DNA of 30,019 nt, taken from a virus. A model generated the notes under the pieces. The model had not been told where the DNA came from, ran no database searches, and worked only from the letters and a program-made list of their open reading frames with translations. This document shows positions 4,000 through 28,655 of the stretch, one piece after another. Within the stretch, counting starts at the first letter, position 1; each line of letters begins with the position of its first letter. Position numbers and translations under genes: made by a program. The stretch spans positions 1-30,019 of the IMG/VR virus record IMGVR_UViG_3300045119_000276; one strand, 5' to 3'.

Positions 4000-4896
4000 A
4001 TGGTAATGCCCCTCATGATAGATTTGTATGCGGGCCTAGGAGGTTGGGCTGAGGGAGGTTTGGCCGAAGGCTACGACGTGATCGGATTCGACATCGAGCG
4101 GCACGATTACGGCCTCGGCGGATACCCGGCGCAATTGGTATTGCAGGACGTCCTGACGCTGCACGGTGCGCAATTCAAGGACGCGGACCTGATCGTGGCA
4201 AGCCCGCCGTGCCAGGCATACAGTTACCGCGCGATGCCGTGGTCGCGTGCAAAGGCGCTGCCGCCACCCGATAATACTCTGTTCGATGCGTGCTTTCGGA
4301 TTCAGCGGGAGGCGTGCGCTGCGGCGGGGCATCACATTCCGATGATCGTTGAAAACGTGCGCGGGGCGCAAAAGTGGGTCGGTCAGGCGCGATGGAACTT
4401 CGGTTCGTTCTACCTTTGGGGCGACGTGCCGGCGCTGATGCCGGTGACGCAAAAGCGCCAGATTATGAAGAACGGGATCACGCACCGGTCTGACGGATCA
4501 ACGAATTTCCACGGGCAGAAAAACAATGGCGGTTCGTGGTTCGCCATCGCCAACAACACTACGAGCGGACACAGCAAGAATCCGGTGAATGAAGGCTTCA
4601 AATCGCACGGCATGAACTGGAGCAACCGGGAGTTGCGTGGCCAGGACTTTACGCGCATTGCAGGCAGGCAAGCTGTCGTAGCCAGGGCCCGACCATCAAA
4701 AATCGAAGGCGTGAAGTTCTCTCAGAGCGGCGCGGCATGGTTTGACGGGACGCCGCGCGACAAGATGCTCGGAGACAAAGGCCCGGCTGCGTTCGGCAGC
4801 AAGAGCAGCGCCCGCAAAGCCGCCTCCGCGGTAATCGCAAAAATTCCCTTTCCGCTTGCGCGATATCTGGCAAGAGTGTTCAAGCCGCAGTGCTAA
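4000..4896 (+). CDS. C5-cytosine DNA methyltransferase
   Basis: A 298-residue protein with the ordered motifs of DNA (cytosine-5)-methyltransferases. Motif I is IDLYAGLGGW (7-16, AdoMet binding). The catalytic loop is SPPCQ (68-72, nucleophile Cys71). Motif VI is VENVRG (117-122), followed by an Arg-containing QKRQ near 151. The terminal motif X-like IPFPLARYLARVF lies near the end. Residues 155-275 would be the target-recognition part. It transfers methyl groups to cytosine in phage DNA, probably protecting it from host restriction. No restriction partner is seen. The start is uncertain: ATGs at 4000, 4006 and 4015 all lack a Shine-Dalgarno, since the old one stays on the far side of the HNH gene. 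Confidence 0.9.
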   Translation: MVMPLMIDLYAGLGGWAEGGLAEGYDVIGFDIERHDYGLGGYPAQLVLQDVLTLHGAQFKDADLIVASPPCQAYSYRAMPWSRAKALPPPDNTLFDACFRIQREACAAAGHHIPMIVENVRGAQKWVGQARWNFGSFYLWGDVPALMPVTQKRQIMKNGITHRSDGSTNFHGQKNNGGSWFAIANNTTSGHSKNPVNEGFKSHGMNWSNRELRGQDFTRIAGRQAVVARARPSKIEGVKFSQSGAAWFDGTPRDKMLGDKGPAAFGSKSSARKAASAVIAKIPFPLARYLARVFKPQC

Positions 4897-5063: not shown

Positions 5064-5747
5064 TTAGGCGTAGGCCGTCCAGTGGCTTTCCGCGAAGATG
5101 GGCTTGTCGGCGATTACGGCAACTGGCTTAATGCGGTAGGCGCTCGCGTAGGACGCAACGCGAAAGCATGGTTCGCCATTCGATACACTGATCTTGACCC
5201 GGCGCGGCGCGCACGGCACGCGCGGGTAATAGCCATGTTCGGCTTTGTACGCTTGCCCGGCATCGCTGCCGTCCGGTTCGGTAGTCCATGCTCCGGGAGA
5301 TGGTACGCACTTGCCTTGAAGCCAAGCCGTGTCCTCGCTCTGGCTGTCGATCTCGCGCACTTCCATCATGCAGGCGCCAATCAGCGCCGTGCATTGGTAA
5401 TAGTCGATATTGGTCTGATCGTACCCCCACGAGCAACGGAAAATGTCGCCGAGTTTTACATCGTGGCCGCCGCTCGACTGCGGTTTAGTCCGCGCTTTGA
5501 ATTCGATGTGTGCCGCGATGCTCTTGAAAAACTCGTCCAGCTTCGCCGCGCGCTGTTCGGCTTTCCAATAGCTGTAGTGGAAGTACGGTTTTCCTGCACT
5601 GCCCCAGAACGCAATGGCGAGGAATTTACCGCACGACTCGTAGGTGTATGCTGCGCCATGTTCGCTCGAGCGCGCGTCCGCTACAGCACCCGCTGGTATC
5701 ATCACTGCACGGTATTGCGCGCGCTTTGCTGCTGTGTCCATTCTCAT
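5064..5747 (-). CDS. Conserved phage/plasmid protein of unknown function (CSWGYDQTN family)
   Basis: A 227-residue protein starting MRMDTAAKRAQYRAVMIPAG. Visible features are a beta-rich N-terminal segment with AYTYESCGKFLAIAFWGSAG, then KPYFHYSYWKAEQRAAKLDEFF (a 'Y.F...E.R......F' motif), a central IFRCSWGYDQTNIDYYQ, a WLQGKCVP loop and a terminal HWTAYA. I recall this set of motifs in uncharacterised proteins of phages and plasmids. The central motif is the most conserved and may be a ligand or nucleic-acid site. The ATG at 5747 follows GGAGGGAGACCGGATC; an upstream extension to 5765 would cover that site. It is transcribed alone from the promoter at 5792-5819 and is convergent with the methyltransferase. 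Confidence 0.8.
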   Translation of the reverse strand: MRMDTAAKRAQYRAVMIPAGAVADARSSEHGAAYTYESCGKFLAIAFWGSAGKPYFHYSYWKAEQRAAKLDEFFKSIAAHIEFKARTKPQSSGGHDVKLGDIFRCSWGYDQTNIDYYQCTALIGACMMEVREIDSQSEDTAWLQGKCVPSPGAWTTEPDGSDAGQAYKAEHGYYPRVPCAPRRVKISVSNGEPCFRVASYASAYRIKPVAVIADKPIFAESHWTAYA

Positions 5748-5791
5748 GATCCGGTCTCCCTCCATTTCCCGCTCGCGTGCGGTATGAGTGA

Positions 5792-5819
5792 ACTATAAAT
5801 AATGTGCAAAACAAGTCAA
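5792..5819 (-). promoter_or_regulatory. Sigma70-type promoter and leader, copy of the 2446-2473 unit
   Basis: On the minus strand, TTGACT (5819-5814), a 16-base spacer and TATAGT (5797-5792) lie 44 bases before the ATG at 5747. The -35, the spacer length and the leader blocks (GCGGTATGA, ATTTCCCGC and ATTCTCATGATCCG, read on the plus strand) match the promoter of the first leftward operon. Confidence 0.75.
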
Positions 5820-5845
5820 GCGATTTTACACATTTATTTTAGAAT

Positions 5846-6025
5846 ATGATCGTCAGCCGCAGAAAACCAGGACCGGACCACAGCGCCGTGATGCGCGGGA
5901 TTGCGCGGATGCGCCGGTTCGAGCGCGAGCGGGCTGCGTGGATCAAGACCCATCCGGGCGCCAGCCATGACGAAATCCGCCGGGCAGCCGATGAGATCGC
6001 GGCGCGGCTGACGCCGGGGGCGTAG
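5846..6025 (+). CDS. Small basic protein (59 aa)
   Basis: A 59-residue ORF starting MIVSRRKPGPDHSAVMRGIA and ending IAARLTPGA. It is Arg-rich, with two predicted helices (MRRFERERAAWIKTHPG and HDEIRRAADEIAARL) that resemble a small HTH-like or 'MHPGAS.DEI..A' DNA-binding unit. It has no Shine-Dalgarno; TAGAAT sits directly before the ATG, so translation may be leaderless or the start may be inefficient. It is divergent from the gene at 5747 and precedes the structured RNA at 6061. Reality is supported mainly by its protein-like composition and by filling the gap. Confidence 0.55.
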   Translation: MIVSRRKPGPDHSAVMRGIARMRRFERERAAWIKTHPGASHDEIRRAADEIAARLTPGA

Positions 6026-6060
6026 GCGCGTTTGATTTTTCGCCCCGCCTGCGCTAGGAT

Positions 6061-6131
6061 TTGATCTCGTCCGGCCTGCAACCGGATTGCCCGAAGCGAG
6101 ACCAGCCCCCCGGTGCCCACTACACCGGGGG
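6061..6131 (+). ncRNA. C4-like antisense RNA candidate
   Basis: Two helices can be drawn. The first has TCTCG (6065-6069) pairing with CGAGA (6097-6101) and enclosing CCGG-7-CCGG (6071-6085) followed by unpaired ATTGCCCGAAG. The second is a perfect 9-bp hairpin, CCCCCGGTG (6107-6115) with CACCGGGGG (6123-6131), whose 7-base loop is CCCACTA. All seven loop bases are complementary to TAGTGGG at 6152-6158, overlapping the ribosome-binding site of the next ORF. The sequence and arrangement resemble the phage C4 antisense RNA family known from P1 and P7, as I remember it; no covariance search was run. It could also act in cis as a pseudoknot. Confidence 0.5.
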
Positions 6132-6165
6132 CGCTCGCCTTCCAAGACCCTTAGTGGGGGAAATC

Positions 6166-6297
6166 ATGAAAATATCGTGGTTGGACCGCACCCTTTCGCA
6201 CCTTGATCGGATTTTGGCTGATTGCAAGGTGCGCAGGCATATTCGCATCAATATGAGGTTCGCCATCCTGCGCCGCGATCAAGCAGACGAGGCGTAA
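6166..6297 (+). CDS. Small ORF between the structured RNA and the replication gene (43 aa)
   Basis: A 43-residue ORF starting MKISWLDRTLSHLDRILADC, basic and probably helical, ending RRDQADEA. AGTGGGGG stands 5 bases before the ATG, and this site is matched by the loop of the upstream hairpin. Its TAA is immediately followed by the ATG of the replication-like gene (TAAATG), so ribosomes finishing here could re-initiate there. The arrangement is that of a control ORF under an antisense RNA, as for the small ORF upstream of ant in P1-like phages. It has no recognised domain of its own. Confidence 0.7.
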   Translation: MKISWLDRTLSHLDRILADCKVRRHIRINMRFAILRRDQADEA

Positions 6298-7176
6298 ATG
6301 CCAAGCCGAATCCTGCGGGAAGGTTATCTGGACTCTGAGCACATTTGCGCGCTTGACCCAGGTTCGGAAACGCTGTTCGTGCGCCTTTTGCTTGTCGCCG
6401 ACGATTTCGGCCGGTTTGACGGTCGCCTGCCGGTCATTCGCGCGCGTTGCTACCCAATTTCCGAGATTGACGCCAAAGAGATTGAGCGCAGGTTGCTCGC
6501 CGTCGCCGAGCGCAGTTTGATTCTGCGTTACGAAGTCAGCGGTAAGCCTTTCATCGTTATACCTAATTTCAAGCAACGCACGCGCGCGATGAAGTCCAAA
6601 TTTCCGCCCCCGCCGGCGGATTTAGCGAAAATGACAGACATTTGTCCGTCAAATGGCTGGCATACGACAGACACACGCCTGACCGATGCATGCGGGTTAC
6701 GGGTTTCGGAGTCGGAGTCGGAGTCGGAGTCGGGTTTGCGCCGCGCGGACAATTCGCAGCCTGTGGATAACTTTTCCGCTCAGCAGCCAAAACCGTCAAA
6801 ACCCCTGAAACCCCGAAAACCCAAACCCCTGCCCGAGGAAATTCCCAAACCCGAACCCCCTAAAACCGGATGGTGGGATACGGACCCAGGAGTCATTGCA
6901 ACCGCCAAAACCCTCAACCTGCCGGCAATCAGCGGCGAAACCGTTCGCGCACTCAAAGAGCGTTGCTTCGCGGAAATCGAGCGCATGAAAAGCGCCAACG
7001 CAGTCCCTCTGCCGACAATTCAGCCGCCATCCTGCGCCCACTGCGGCACACCGTTCGCCAACGGCGGATTCACGTCCATGTCCGGCGGCAACGTGTGCAA
7101 TCCGTGCTATGCGGCGTACCTGCGCTCGGAATGGCAACCGGCGCAACCGGATCAACCCCACGCTCCACTGGCTTGA
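6298..7176 (+). CDS. Phage replication-initiation-like protein
   Basis: A 292-residue protein. Residues 1-108 resemble the N-terminal domain of phage replication or replisome-organiser proteins: 'RILREGYLDSEHICALDP', 'FVRLLLVADDFGRFDG', 'RARCYP', 'KPFIVIPNFKQRTRAMKSKFP'. Residues 137-145 are a (Ser-Glu)4 run, 158-185 a Lys/Pro-rich linker, and 233-260 a zinc ribbon (CAHC ... CNPC). In this family the N-terminus binds origin DNA and the rest contacts host DnaB or DnaC; that part is known for relatives and inferred here. The gene contains a DnaA box and repeats (6707-6770), so the origin may lie inside it as in lambda O. It is coupled to the 43-aa ORF. Confidence 0.75.
   Translation: MPSRILREGYLDSEHICALDPGSETLFVRLLLVADDFGRFDGRLPVIRARCYPISEIDAKEIERRLLAVAERSLILRYEVSGKPFIVIPNFKQRTRAMKSKFPPPPADLAKMTDICPSNGWHTTDTRLTDACGLRVSESESESESGLRRADNSQPVDNFSAQQPKPSKPLKPRKPKPLPEEIPKPEPPKTGWWDTDPGVIATAKTLNLPAISGETVRALKERCFAEIERMKSANAVPLPTIQPPSCAHCGTPFANGGFTSMSGGNVCNPCYAAYLRSEWQPAQPDQPHAPLA
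6707..6730 (+). repeat. Four 6-bp tandem repeats (CGGAGT)
   Basis: CGGAGT is repeated four times in perfect register (6707-6730), coding for Ser-Glu repeats. Because the unit is two codons long, slippage would change only the length of the protein linker. It lies 32 bases before a consensus DnaA box. Confidence 0.85.
6762..6860 (+). other. Candidate replication origin inside the replication gene
   Basis: TGTGGATAA at 6762-6770 is the exact complement of the DnaA box TTATCCACA. It is followed from 6785 by at least five imperfect (A)AAACCC(C) units about 8-9 bases apart, which give a strongly A/C-biased strand. The combination of repeats, DnaA box and strand asymmetry in the middle of a replication gene recalls the lambda ori in gene O. 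The A/C repeats also encode the Lys/Pro linker, so they may be purely coding. Confidence 0.4.
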
Positions 7177-7749
7177 TTCGCGCCGATTCAGCAGAGGCGG
7201 CTTTGACTGTCGCCGGCCATGTGTACATTTTTTATATGCACCCCCCTGTCGAACTTTCGACACCCCCTCCAGGCGATCTGGTCCGAGGTCGGTCCGGCGG
7301 ATTGTCTGCTGCGGCGCACAAAATGCCGTTTGGGGGTACTTTTGGTGGTATCTTGCGTTTGTCACGACTTCCAACATGTTTTTTCTCAAACAGTTAAGAC
7401 TATCTTTTGGTTCCTTGTCACGGCATCCAATCGGAAAACGGGTGATGGGCGACCCGGTCAACCCGGCCGGCCGCGTCGAGGTGCTGGCGGCTGGAGGGCG
7501 CCGGCGGCGAGGTCCTGGCCATCTGGGCGCCGGGCTGGCCGCTGGCTGGTCGGGCTGGCCGTCGAGCCGGCGGGGCGCCGGGCCAGATGGGTCTGAGGGC
7601 GGCGTGCGCGTGTGCCATCCCTGTTCCGCCCCCAAAACGCGCAGGGCCTTTTTGCTTGATTCCAGGCGACCCTCCGAAAAACGGGCAACCAAGGCGACAT
7701 CTCTCCGGTTGATACCTAGATATTGCCGAGGGGGTGATCGAAGCTCCAG
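7177..7749. other. Gene-poor stretch with a GC-rich repeat tract
   Basis: No frame here looks like a protein on either strand; the long frames are Arg/Pro/Gly-rich shadows of high GC. The stretch changes sharply in composition. About 7330-7440 is T-rich and comparatively AT-rich, whereas 7450-7600 is very GC-rich, with GGGCTGGCCG repeated at about 7534 and 7552 and GGCGCC several times. CCATCTGG (7519-7526) and CCAGATGG (7583-7590) are inverted copies that could close a large stem. A structured RNA, an origin or packaging site, or decayed sequence are all possible. Confidence 0.35.
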
Positions 7750-26332: not shown

Positions 26333-28655
26333 AATCGAGGAATTCGAGTTTCGCGCTCGGGCCGAGGCGGAAGCGCAGGCGGCGACGGTCGTCGACCCAG
26401 ACATCCCCGTTCCCGGTCACGCGATGGATGCGCCGGCCAAGCCTGAGGAAGCGCCGGCATCCATGCTCAGCACCGTGGCTGACAAGGCCGGCAAGTTCGC
26501 GCGCGGCAAGCTCGGCGACCTGGAGGCCGGCGGTGCGCTGCTCACCGGCATGGCAGGCTCTATCCCCGGCATGGTGCTCGGCGGAGCAAACGCCGCTGTT
26601 CGGCAGGCGATGGGGCGAGGCGGTCCTGGCTTCAAGGAAGGGGCGATGGAGGGCGCCAGCGCATTGACGCGCACGCCGCGCACGCCGGAGGGGAAGGAAG
26701 CCCTGGGCGGTCTCCAGGAAGCGGTATCGGCGAGCAAGCTGGAAGGGCTCGGGCCGACCGGCGGCATGCTGATGGGCGGGATGTCCGGTAGCGGCAAACT
26801 GGCGGGACCGGCGCTGCGGCAGGTTGGCGCACCGGTTGGCGCTCTACTTGAACGCGGCGCCAAAACGATCGGCGCTGGCGCGTCCAAGGTGGGCGAGTTT
26901 GCCGGCGACGTGATTGGCAGGAGGGTTGCGCCTTCACGGGAAGCGGCCGGGATCGAGGCGCGCAAGGCGGTCGAGGAAGGCATGGCGAAGTTGAGCAAGG
27001 CCGGCCAGCAGGACGAGTTGCGCGTCAAGGCGATCGGTGACGTTGAAAAGCGGCTGGAGGCGCAGCTAGAGACCGAGCGCACCGTGCCGGCGGACCTGGG
27101 CAAGATCGGGGCATCCATTCGCGGCACCTTCAACGAGACGATGGAGAACGCGAAAACCGTGCGCGCCGACATCGCCAAAGAGCAGTTCGCCGAGGTGATG
27201 GAAAAAGCCGCGGCCAAGGAAGCGACTGGCGCGCGCGTGGATACGTCAGAAATTGAGGGCGAACTGAATGCGATGCTGGAAAAGGCTGCCGGTATTCCAG
27301 ATCTCGAAGTTGCGCTGAAAAACGCGCTCTCCACTGTGGCCGGGAAGGAAGTCGATCCAGCGGCCGGCGCAGGTCGCGCACCCGCCGCGTTTCAAGCCGA
27401 AAGCCTTCTGGCCGCGATTCAGAAAAAGGGCGGCATCTCGATCAATCAAATCTCGGACCTTACGGGCGAAGGCCGCGTTGGAAATGGGGTCAAAGGTCTT
27501 CGCCCTGGTCTATTCACTCGGAACGGTCAAGGCCTGGGCGATCTTGCGAATGCTCTGCGCGAGGAAGGATGGGACATACCAAACGATATGGTCGACGGCG
27601 GAGTTCAGGCGCTGCGCGACTTGATCCAGAAGGAACTGCGTGGCGAAAAAGTCTATTCGATTGCCGATACTGACCGGGAGACGGTGCACCGGCTCAGCGC
27701 ACTTGGGCGCGATGCCGCGCTAGAGCAGGAACCGTACCGCCCCGGCAAGACGTTTGAGCAGTTGGAGGTGGCGCGGCGCAAACTGAACGACATCGCGTTC
27801 TCGCGCGATATGGAGGGGTACGGCGCCATATTCCGAGGTGAAGCCAAGAAGGCGGCGAAGGCGTTGGACAGGGCCATGCAGGAATTCGTGCCGGAGTTCG
27901 GCGAGTACAAGGCCAAGTATCGGCAAATGTCGGAACCACTGGAAACGCTCGGGACGCGGTTCGGGCGGGCGCTGCACGATACCGAGGGCGGCTTGCAAGG
28001 CGAGGCTTACGCCAAGGTCTCCGACCAGAATTTACCGGGCAGAATTTTTTCTACGCGCGAGGGTATTGAGCAGATGATCGACGCGGTTGCCGGCGGCAAG
28101 GGCGCATCGCCGCAATATCGCTCGATCGCAACGAAGCAAGTCGGTGTGTGGGTCGAACAGTGGATCAGGGAAACGACGCGCACGATGCAACCGACGAAGG
28201 CGCTAGAAAAGCTATCCGAGCCCGGCATGCGCGCATCGCTTCAATCCCTGCCGAACGTCGAAGCGGCACTGAAAAAGCAGTTCGGGGACATCTCAGGCAT
28301 GGACCGCACGGCGAAGCAGTTGGCGAAGATGCACGGCGAGCTCGCCGAGCGCGGCGCGGAAAAGACCCAAGCAGCGGCCGCAGTCAGAACTGAAATCCAG
28401 AAGGCCGATGACCTTGCTTCTCTTCCTGGCGAAAAATCGCAAAAGAAGGCACTTTCGATCTTGACGAAGGCGCTCGATTCAGGATTGGACAAAGAACTGA
28501 TTCCGCGTGCGCAGTGGAACGCAGCGCGCGTGCTGATCGACAAGGCCGAGACCATTGAGGAAAAGACAAATATCGCGCGCAGGATCGCTACTCTGATAGG
28601 CGTGACGGCGGGCGCTGGCGCGGTCGGCGCCGAAGGCGTGAAGTACTTGCAATGA
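26319..28655 (+). CDS. Large internal virion protein candidate (778 aa)
   Basis: A 778-residue helical protein. Its ATG at 26319 lies inside the end of the previous gene, preceded by GGAAAG. Residues 55-140 are Gly/Ala/Met-rich with glycine zippers ('GALLTGMAGSIPGMVLGGANAA', 'GGMLMGGMSGSGKLAGPALRQVG'), capable of inserting into a membrane. Residues 215-310 are charged helices. 'RYRPGKTFEQLEVARRKLNDIAF' and 'EYKAKYRQMSEPLETLGTRFGR' follow, and there is a final hydrophobic 'IATLIGVTAGAGAVGAEG'. Size and position fit the largest ejection protein. No lytic transglycosylase Glu motif is identifiable. Confidence 0.65.
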   Translation: MALSEIEEFEFRARAEAEAQAATVVDPDIPVPGHAMDAPAKPEEAPASMLSTVADKAGKFARGKLGDLEAGGALLTGMAGSIPGMVLGGANAAVRQAMGRGGPGFKEGAMEGASALTRTPRTPEGKEALGGLQEAVSASKLEGLGPTGGMLMGGMSGSGKLAGPALRQVGAPVGALLERGAKTIGAGASKVGEFAGDVIGRRVAPSREAAGIEARKAVEEGMAKLSKAGQQDELRVKAIGDVEKRLEAQLETERTVPADLGKIGASIRGTFNETMENAKTVRADIAKEQFAEVMEKAAAKEATGARVDTSEIEGELNAMLEKAAGIPDLEVALKNALSTVAGKEVDPAAGAGRAPAAFQAESLLAAIQKKGGISINQISDLTGEGRVGNGVKGLRPGLFTRNGQGLGDLANALREEGWDIPNDMVDGGVQALRDLIQKELRGEKVYSIADTDRETVHRLSALGRDAALEQEPYRPGKTFEQLEVARRKLNDIAFSRDMEGYGAIFRGEAKKAAKALDRAMQEFVPEFGEYKAKYRQMSEPLETLGTRFGRALHDTEGGLQGEAYAKVSDQNLPGRIFSTREGIEQMIDAVAGGKGASPQYRSIATKQVGVWVEQWIRETTRTMQPTKALEKLSEPGMRASLQSLPNVEAALKKQFGDISGMDRTAKQLAKMHGELAERGAEKTQAAAAVRTEIQKADDLASLPGEKSQKKALSILTKALDSGLDKELIPRAQWNAARVLIDKAETIEEKTNIARRIATLIGVTAGAGAVGAEGVKYLQ

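Follow-up and report, generated by a model that had tools for sequence, protein, structure and literature searches.

CopA of plasmid R1 and the Inc RNA of ColIb-P9 (repY-repZ) are antisense RNAs transcribed from the opposite strand, with incompatibility set by the loop sequence; the loop pairs upstream of a leader ORF that is coupled to the replication initiator gene. C4 RNA of phages P1 and P7 (Rfam RF01695) comes from the leader of the operon under its control, makes two contacts with its target, is processed by RNase P, and switches specificity between P1 and P7 through a few loop changes (PMC5320573). The CI RNA of satellite phage P4, a short leader RNA that pairs on its own transcript, provides a precedent for a phage replication operon under RNA control, exerted through transcription termination (PMC4825925). 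IsrK of Gifsy-1 is a short leader RNA that activates its own long transcript (PMC4825925), in which the first ORF is translationally coupled to the next.

Here we describe a candidate leader RNA in the window, a 30-kb virus record. It resembles C4 in its origin from the leader of the operon that it would control, in a loop whose complement lies in the ribosome region of a small leading ORF linked to an effector, and in that a few loop changes would switch its specificity. C4, however, consists of an outer stem enclosing two hairpins, contacts its target through a' plus b', and controls icd/ant, whereas the window RNA consists of two serial hairpins, has a single 7-nt pairing, and belongs to a type that precedes replication modules. 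The likeness to P4 CI, a short leader RNA controlling the replication genes of its own operon, is one of regulatory logic; CI ends transcription prematurely by way of seqA and seqC, whereas the site in the window is a ribosome-binding site. IsrK likewise acts on its own downstream mRNA, but it activates, has a terminator and controls anrP/antQ, and no shared sequence was seen. Like the plasmid antisense RNAs, the window RNA would pair through a loop ahead of a small ORF joined to a replication initiator gene, and its loop sequence would set incompatibility; unlike theirs, its antisense loop lies on the strand of its target. The features of the locus are as follows.

6032–6060, plus strand: predicted promoter firing into the RNA, TTGATT (6032–6037), 17-nt spacer, TAGGAT (6055–6060)
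6069–6087, plus strand: hairpin 1, 6-bp stem GTCCGG/CCGGAT, loop CCTGCAA
6096–6138, plus strand: hairpin 2, outer helix GCGAG/CTCGC, asymmetric internal loop, inner GC stem
6116–6122, plus strand: putative antisense (specificity) loop CCCACTA
6152–6158, plus strand: putative target TAGTGGG, reaching into the ribosome-binding site from its 5' side
6166–6297, plus strand: 43-aa ORF, first cistron under the RNA, its stop TAA directly adjoining the next ATG
6298–7176, plus strand: replication initiator-like gene, 292 aa

The inner stem of hairpin 2, CCCCCGGTG-CCCACTA-CACCGGGGG (6107–6131), has the nine base pairs (6107–6115 with 6123–6131) and 7-nt loop that an earlier note on this DNA had claimed, and it is set on the short outer helix formed by 6096–6100 with 6134–6138. 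The loop is complementary over all seven bases to TAGTGGG, which lies at the ribosome site of the 43-aa ORF, as that note also held; this target overlaps the Shine-Dalgarno-like GGGGGA (6156–6161) that precedes the ATG at 6166. Beyond what the note described, the element also has a promoter (6032–6060), directly preceding hairpin 1, and a second hairpin (6069–6087). No intrinsic terminator was found in the window between the RNA and its target site.

The 43-aa ORF, which has no family match, does abut the replication gene (TAAATG, with the ORF ending at 6297 and the gene starting at 6298). The suggestion that this gene encodes a replication initiator was upheld by matches of the 292-aa product to the PHROG replication-initiation families phrog_5810 (E 3e-10), phrog_1408 (6.5e-10) and phrog_2149 (2.2e-9). 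Between the N-terminal and C-terminal parts of the gene, a run of GAGTCG repeats (6709–6737) encodes SESESESE. The region 3' of it (7440–7640) is GC-rich and repetitive-looking and may represent an origin or some further structured element; similar frame translations (VLAAGGRRRRGPG...) follow the replication genes of two of the relatives described below, G001 and G008. On the other side, a promoter-like TTGACT-16-TATAGT on the minus strand (5792–5819) precedes the minus-strand gene 5765–5064 (phrog_37844) and is arranged back to back with the promoter region of the RNA. A C5 cytosine DNA methylase gene (PF00145) occupies 4000–4896, and G003 has a similar-looking ORF upstream of its copy of the element.

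Taken singly, the loop/site match in the window is suggestive only, because a perfect match has p ~0.001 when the linker/RBS region is shuffled and a loose loop-to-start-codon finder returns about one match per shuffled genome. The latter rate is what a chance match, or an inverted repeat acting at the DNA level (for example, as a protein operator) with no RNA role, would have in its favor. Folds of the leader alone gave minimum free energies with z of about -2 to -3, which we do not take as the main evidence. The decisive comparison is with relatives.

The element was recovered in six further distinct phages (G001, G002, G003, G007, G008 and the contig pair L170/L171) by a covariance model and patterns. 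G001 and G002 were found through the replication gene and a pattern. The covariance model R1, built from these two copies and that of the window and run on whole related records, yielded new copies in G008 (E 2e-22), G007 (3e-8) and G003 (5e-8). L170/L171 was found by a promoter-plus-outer-stem pattern and has an R1 score of ~7e-14. Neither R1 nor the promoter pattern, the searches that yielded relatives with new loops, made any demand for complementarity of those loops. A second model, R2, built from all seven copies, found one convincing copy per related genome, plus two matches that are noise (E 0.24 and 0.7); 0.9 Mb of unrelated sequence gave it no match at E≤1.

Other searches added no copies. 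Among the matches listed for the loose pattern CGAGACCAGCC...CTCG in viral contigs were chance ones inside genes, and, apart from unrelated sequence, the patterns loop-plus-site and promoter-plus-GACCAGCC recovered no records other than G001 and G002. A pattern scan of genome contigs gave six chance-looking matches and no prophage home, and BLASTN of the element against GenBank phages gave short chance matches only. The GenBank phages MW202753 and MW202825, whose capsid protein is 63% identical, had no match to the covariance models. Across searches that included GenBank phages, the element was found only in uncultivated phage contigs.

The seven copies share two hairpins in series, of which the second has a short outer helix. 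In hairpin 1, both sides change at all six pairs and every cell is paired (42 of 42). The inner stem of hairpin 2 is paired in 63 of 63 cells, with both-side changes in three of its nine pairs, and in G002 it carries one paired insertion; its stem covaries while the loop stays at 7 nt. Over both stems, every cell pairs and nine changes are double-sided. The promoter reads TTGATT-17-TAGGAT in five of the seven copies, TTGAAA-17-TAGGAT in G001 and TTGATT-17-TATTCT in G003. Within each genome it is matched only at the RNA element, apart from one looser match in G008.

The loops and ribosome sites fall into five alleles, each pairing at all seven positions.

CCCACTA with TAGTGGG: window, G001 and G002 (7/7)
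CCCAACA with TGTTGGG: G008 (7/7)
CCCAATA with TATTGGG: L171 (7/7)
CCTACCA with TGGTAGG: G007 (7/7)
CCATGAA with TTCATGG: G003 (7/7)

In this loop-site table, 49 of 49 cells pair and both sides change at four of the seven positions. The pairing was counted on a hand-registered table, not on the model-fitted alignment A4, because indels in A4 displace the G003 and G007 sites by one column. When loops were swapped against sites among four of the alleles (the fifth, from L170/L171, not being among them), only 3–5 contiguous pairs formed. The product of the shuffled-region probabilities over the copies is ~3e-14, a figure that ignores relatedness. In all copies the loop begins with CC (positions 1–2), the counterpart of the GG with which the Shine-Dalgarno region starts. 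The site lies 7–12 nt before the start codon in every copy, the linker from hairpin 2 to the site is 8–14 nt, and loop and site are ~30–37 nt apart on one transcript.

The earlier note had asked for loop/site covariation in related phages and had named independent change of the two as evidence against its proposal; we observe the opposite, with loop and site changing together. The match is not a product of chance, since seven distinct copies with five loop sequences all pair at 7/7. The covariation of the stems around a loop of constant length, and the fixed placement between promoter and start codon, also argue against a DNA-level repeat. Covariation refutes chance and a DNA-level repeat alike, and we consider either exceedingly improbable.

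In every copy, the gene under the RNA is the first cistron of a replication module, often ending at or beside the start of the next replication gene. The kinds of module differ.

Window: 43-aa ORF, then the initiator
G001: DUF1376/phrog_22470 replication protein directly
G002: HNH-like ORF, then a DUF1376 protein
G003: 116-aa ORF, then a phrog_1408 initiator, stop and start adjacent
G007: CHC2 primase-finger protein overlapping an AAA_25 helicase
G008: 110-aa ORF, then an AAA_25 helicase
L171: 22-aa ORF, then a primosomal protein (phrog_6451) 77 nt on

The window, G001, G007 and G008 carry different replication modules and three loop alleles, with portal and capsid proteins 94–98% identical among them. 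As different modules thus stand behind the same promoter and RNA in phages with nearly identical virion proteins, the RNA marks a point of module exchange. G002 and G003 have the C-terminal part of the replication protein in common with the window, and no match to the window portal or capsid was found in them. The window and G008 are identical in hairpin 1 and differ in loop allele.

Searches that bear on lifestyle found no tyrosine integrase, and those for ParA (a plasmid-prophage lifestyle) and for the capsid in plasmids were negative. As no integrase was found, a lysogenic or immunity role for the RNA is unproven. HTH_3 (repressor-like) domains occur in G002 (27469–27570) and G003 (5721–5822), 2.4 and 3.4 kb upstream of the RNA, and were not found in the other records.

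The earlier note had read the locus as a copy of P1/P7 immunity logic with a C4-like RNA. The functional logic is strongly supported, as loop and site change together and the first cistron belongs to a replication module; membership in the C4 family is not supported. A divergent C4 would indeed show the same arrangement, with an upstream hairpin loop complementary to the ribosome region of a small, effector-coupled ORF, and the P1 C4 loop contains UUUCACUAACG opposite GTTAGTGAGG before the next ORF. The candidate RNA has this C4-like feature, a hairpin loop complementary to the ribosome region of a small ORF farther down its own transcript, in all five alleles (7/7). The comparison with RF01695 that the note had called for, however, gave no match at E≤10 for any copy in eight related records, while P1 C4 scored 68.8 bits in the same search (gathering score 45 bits). 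Moreover, no stem encloses both hairpins, no upstream a1/b1 element is seen (RF03163, the upstream a1/b1 target copy, had no Rfam match in the window), and the effectors are replication genes, not an antirepressor. With all 4227 Rfam models, the window gave nothing at the gathering threshold and 5800–6400 nothing relevant at E≤10. C4 membership is thus largely refuted and, in our view, highly unlikely. Since no copy matches RF01695 while P1 C4 does, the sequences are best described as a separate RNA family that appears to work like C4. No description of a family of the window type was found in the literature searched.

We consider it probable, and the best reading of the locus, that the leader RNA, by pairing of its loop with the first cistron's ribosome site, represses translation of the replication gene. 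Transcription from the promoter would yield a single leader RNA with the replication module behind it. This leader would fold into the two hairpins, the loop of the second being antisense to the downstream ribosome-binding site of the first cistron on the same transcript. Pairing would cover the first Shine-Dalgarno bases and block ribosome entry, so that the first cistron, and with it the replication gene that is coupled to it or adjoins it, would be translated less. This would be a negative control of phage replication, with a specificity that paired loop/site changes can switch. We infer that its action is at least partly in trans, through an RNA freed by cleavage or early termination or supplied by a co-resident genome; it would thereby set timing or copy number, or make phages that share a loop type exclude one another. 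As no terminator separates the RNA from its target, a free short RNA would need cleavage or processing.

A purely cis-acting leader, in which the hairpin-2 loop pairs with its own ribosome site as a pseudoknot and no trans-acting RNA is involved, seems to us possible but rather unlikely. Such a pseudoknot, for which we hold the same expectation, would keep translation down until opened by ribosome traffic, a protein or RNA decay. It would account for the constant presence of loop and site on the same transcript, the lack of a terminator between them and the single element per genome, and pairing across the 8–14-nt linker is sterically possible. The loop, however, is exactly 7 nt and fully paired, with no nucleotide left to cross the groove of an H-type pseudoknot. 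Loop specificity also differs between phages ~95% identical in virion proteins with hairpin 1 unchanged (window versus G008), and a cis-only element has no evident reason for such turnover. We therefore favor trans action, as specificity turns over between otherwise almost identical phages and the fully paired loop has no spare nucleotide.

The direction of regulation could also be reversed, since the ribosome sites fold into small local hairpins in the five variants. In an activator of the IsrK kind, for which the Gifsy-1 leader RNA is the precedent, the ribosome site would be shut in a local hairpin and loop binding would open it, turning translation on. The linker/RBS regions do fold alone, to -13 kcal/mol in G007, but pairing with the loop itself takes up the opening bases of that site, and the local hairpins vary between copies while the loop-site pairing is invariant. 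We regard activation as quite unlikely and retain repression by pairing as the preferred reading. The comparative evidence argues for a genuine RNA switch that acts on phage DNA replication.

The locus would extend the same-transcript antisense logic of P1/P7 immunity to phage replication genes, at the ribosome site. At least five alleles exist of its one specificity loop, and the replication proteins that follow are exchanged while the element itself remains in place; the element also provides a compact set of naturally orthogonal loop/ribosome-site pairs. If the RNA acts in trans, phages that are nearly identical otherwise would fall into exclusion groups according to allele. We tentatively propose an undescribed family of phage RNAs with interchangeable loop/ribosome-site alleles, which may act in trans on replication genes and would sort near-identical phages into RNA-defined replication-incompatibility (exclusion) types, whatever replication proteins they carry.
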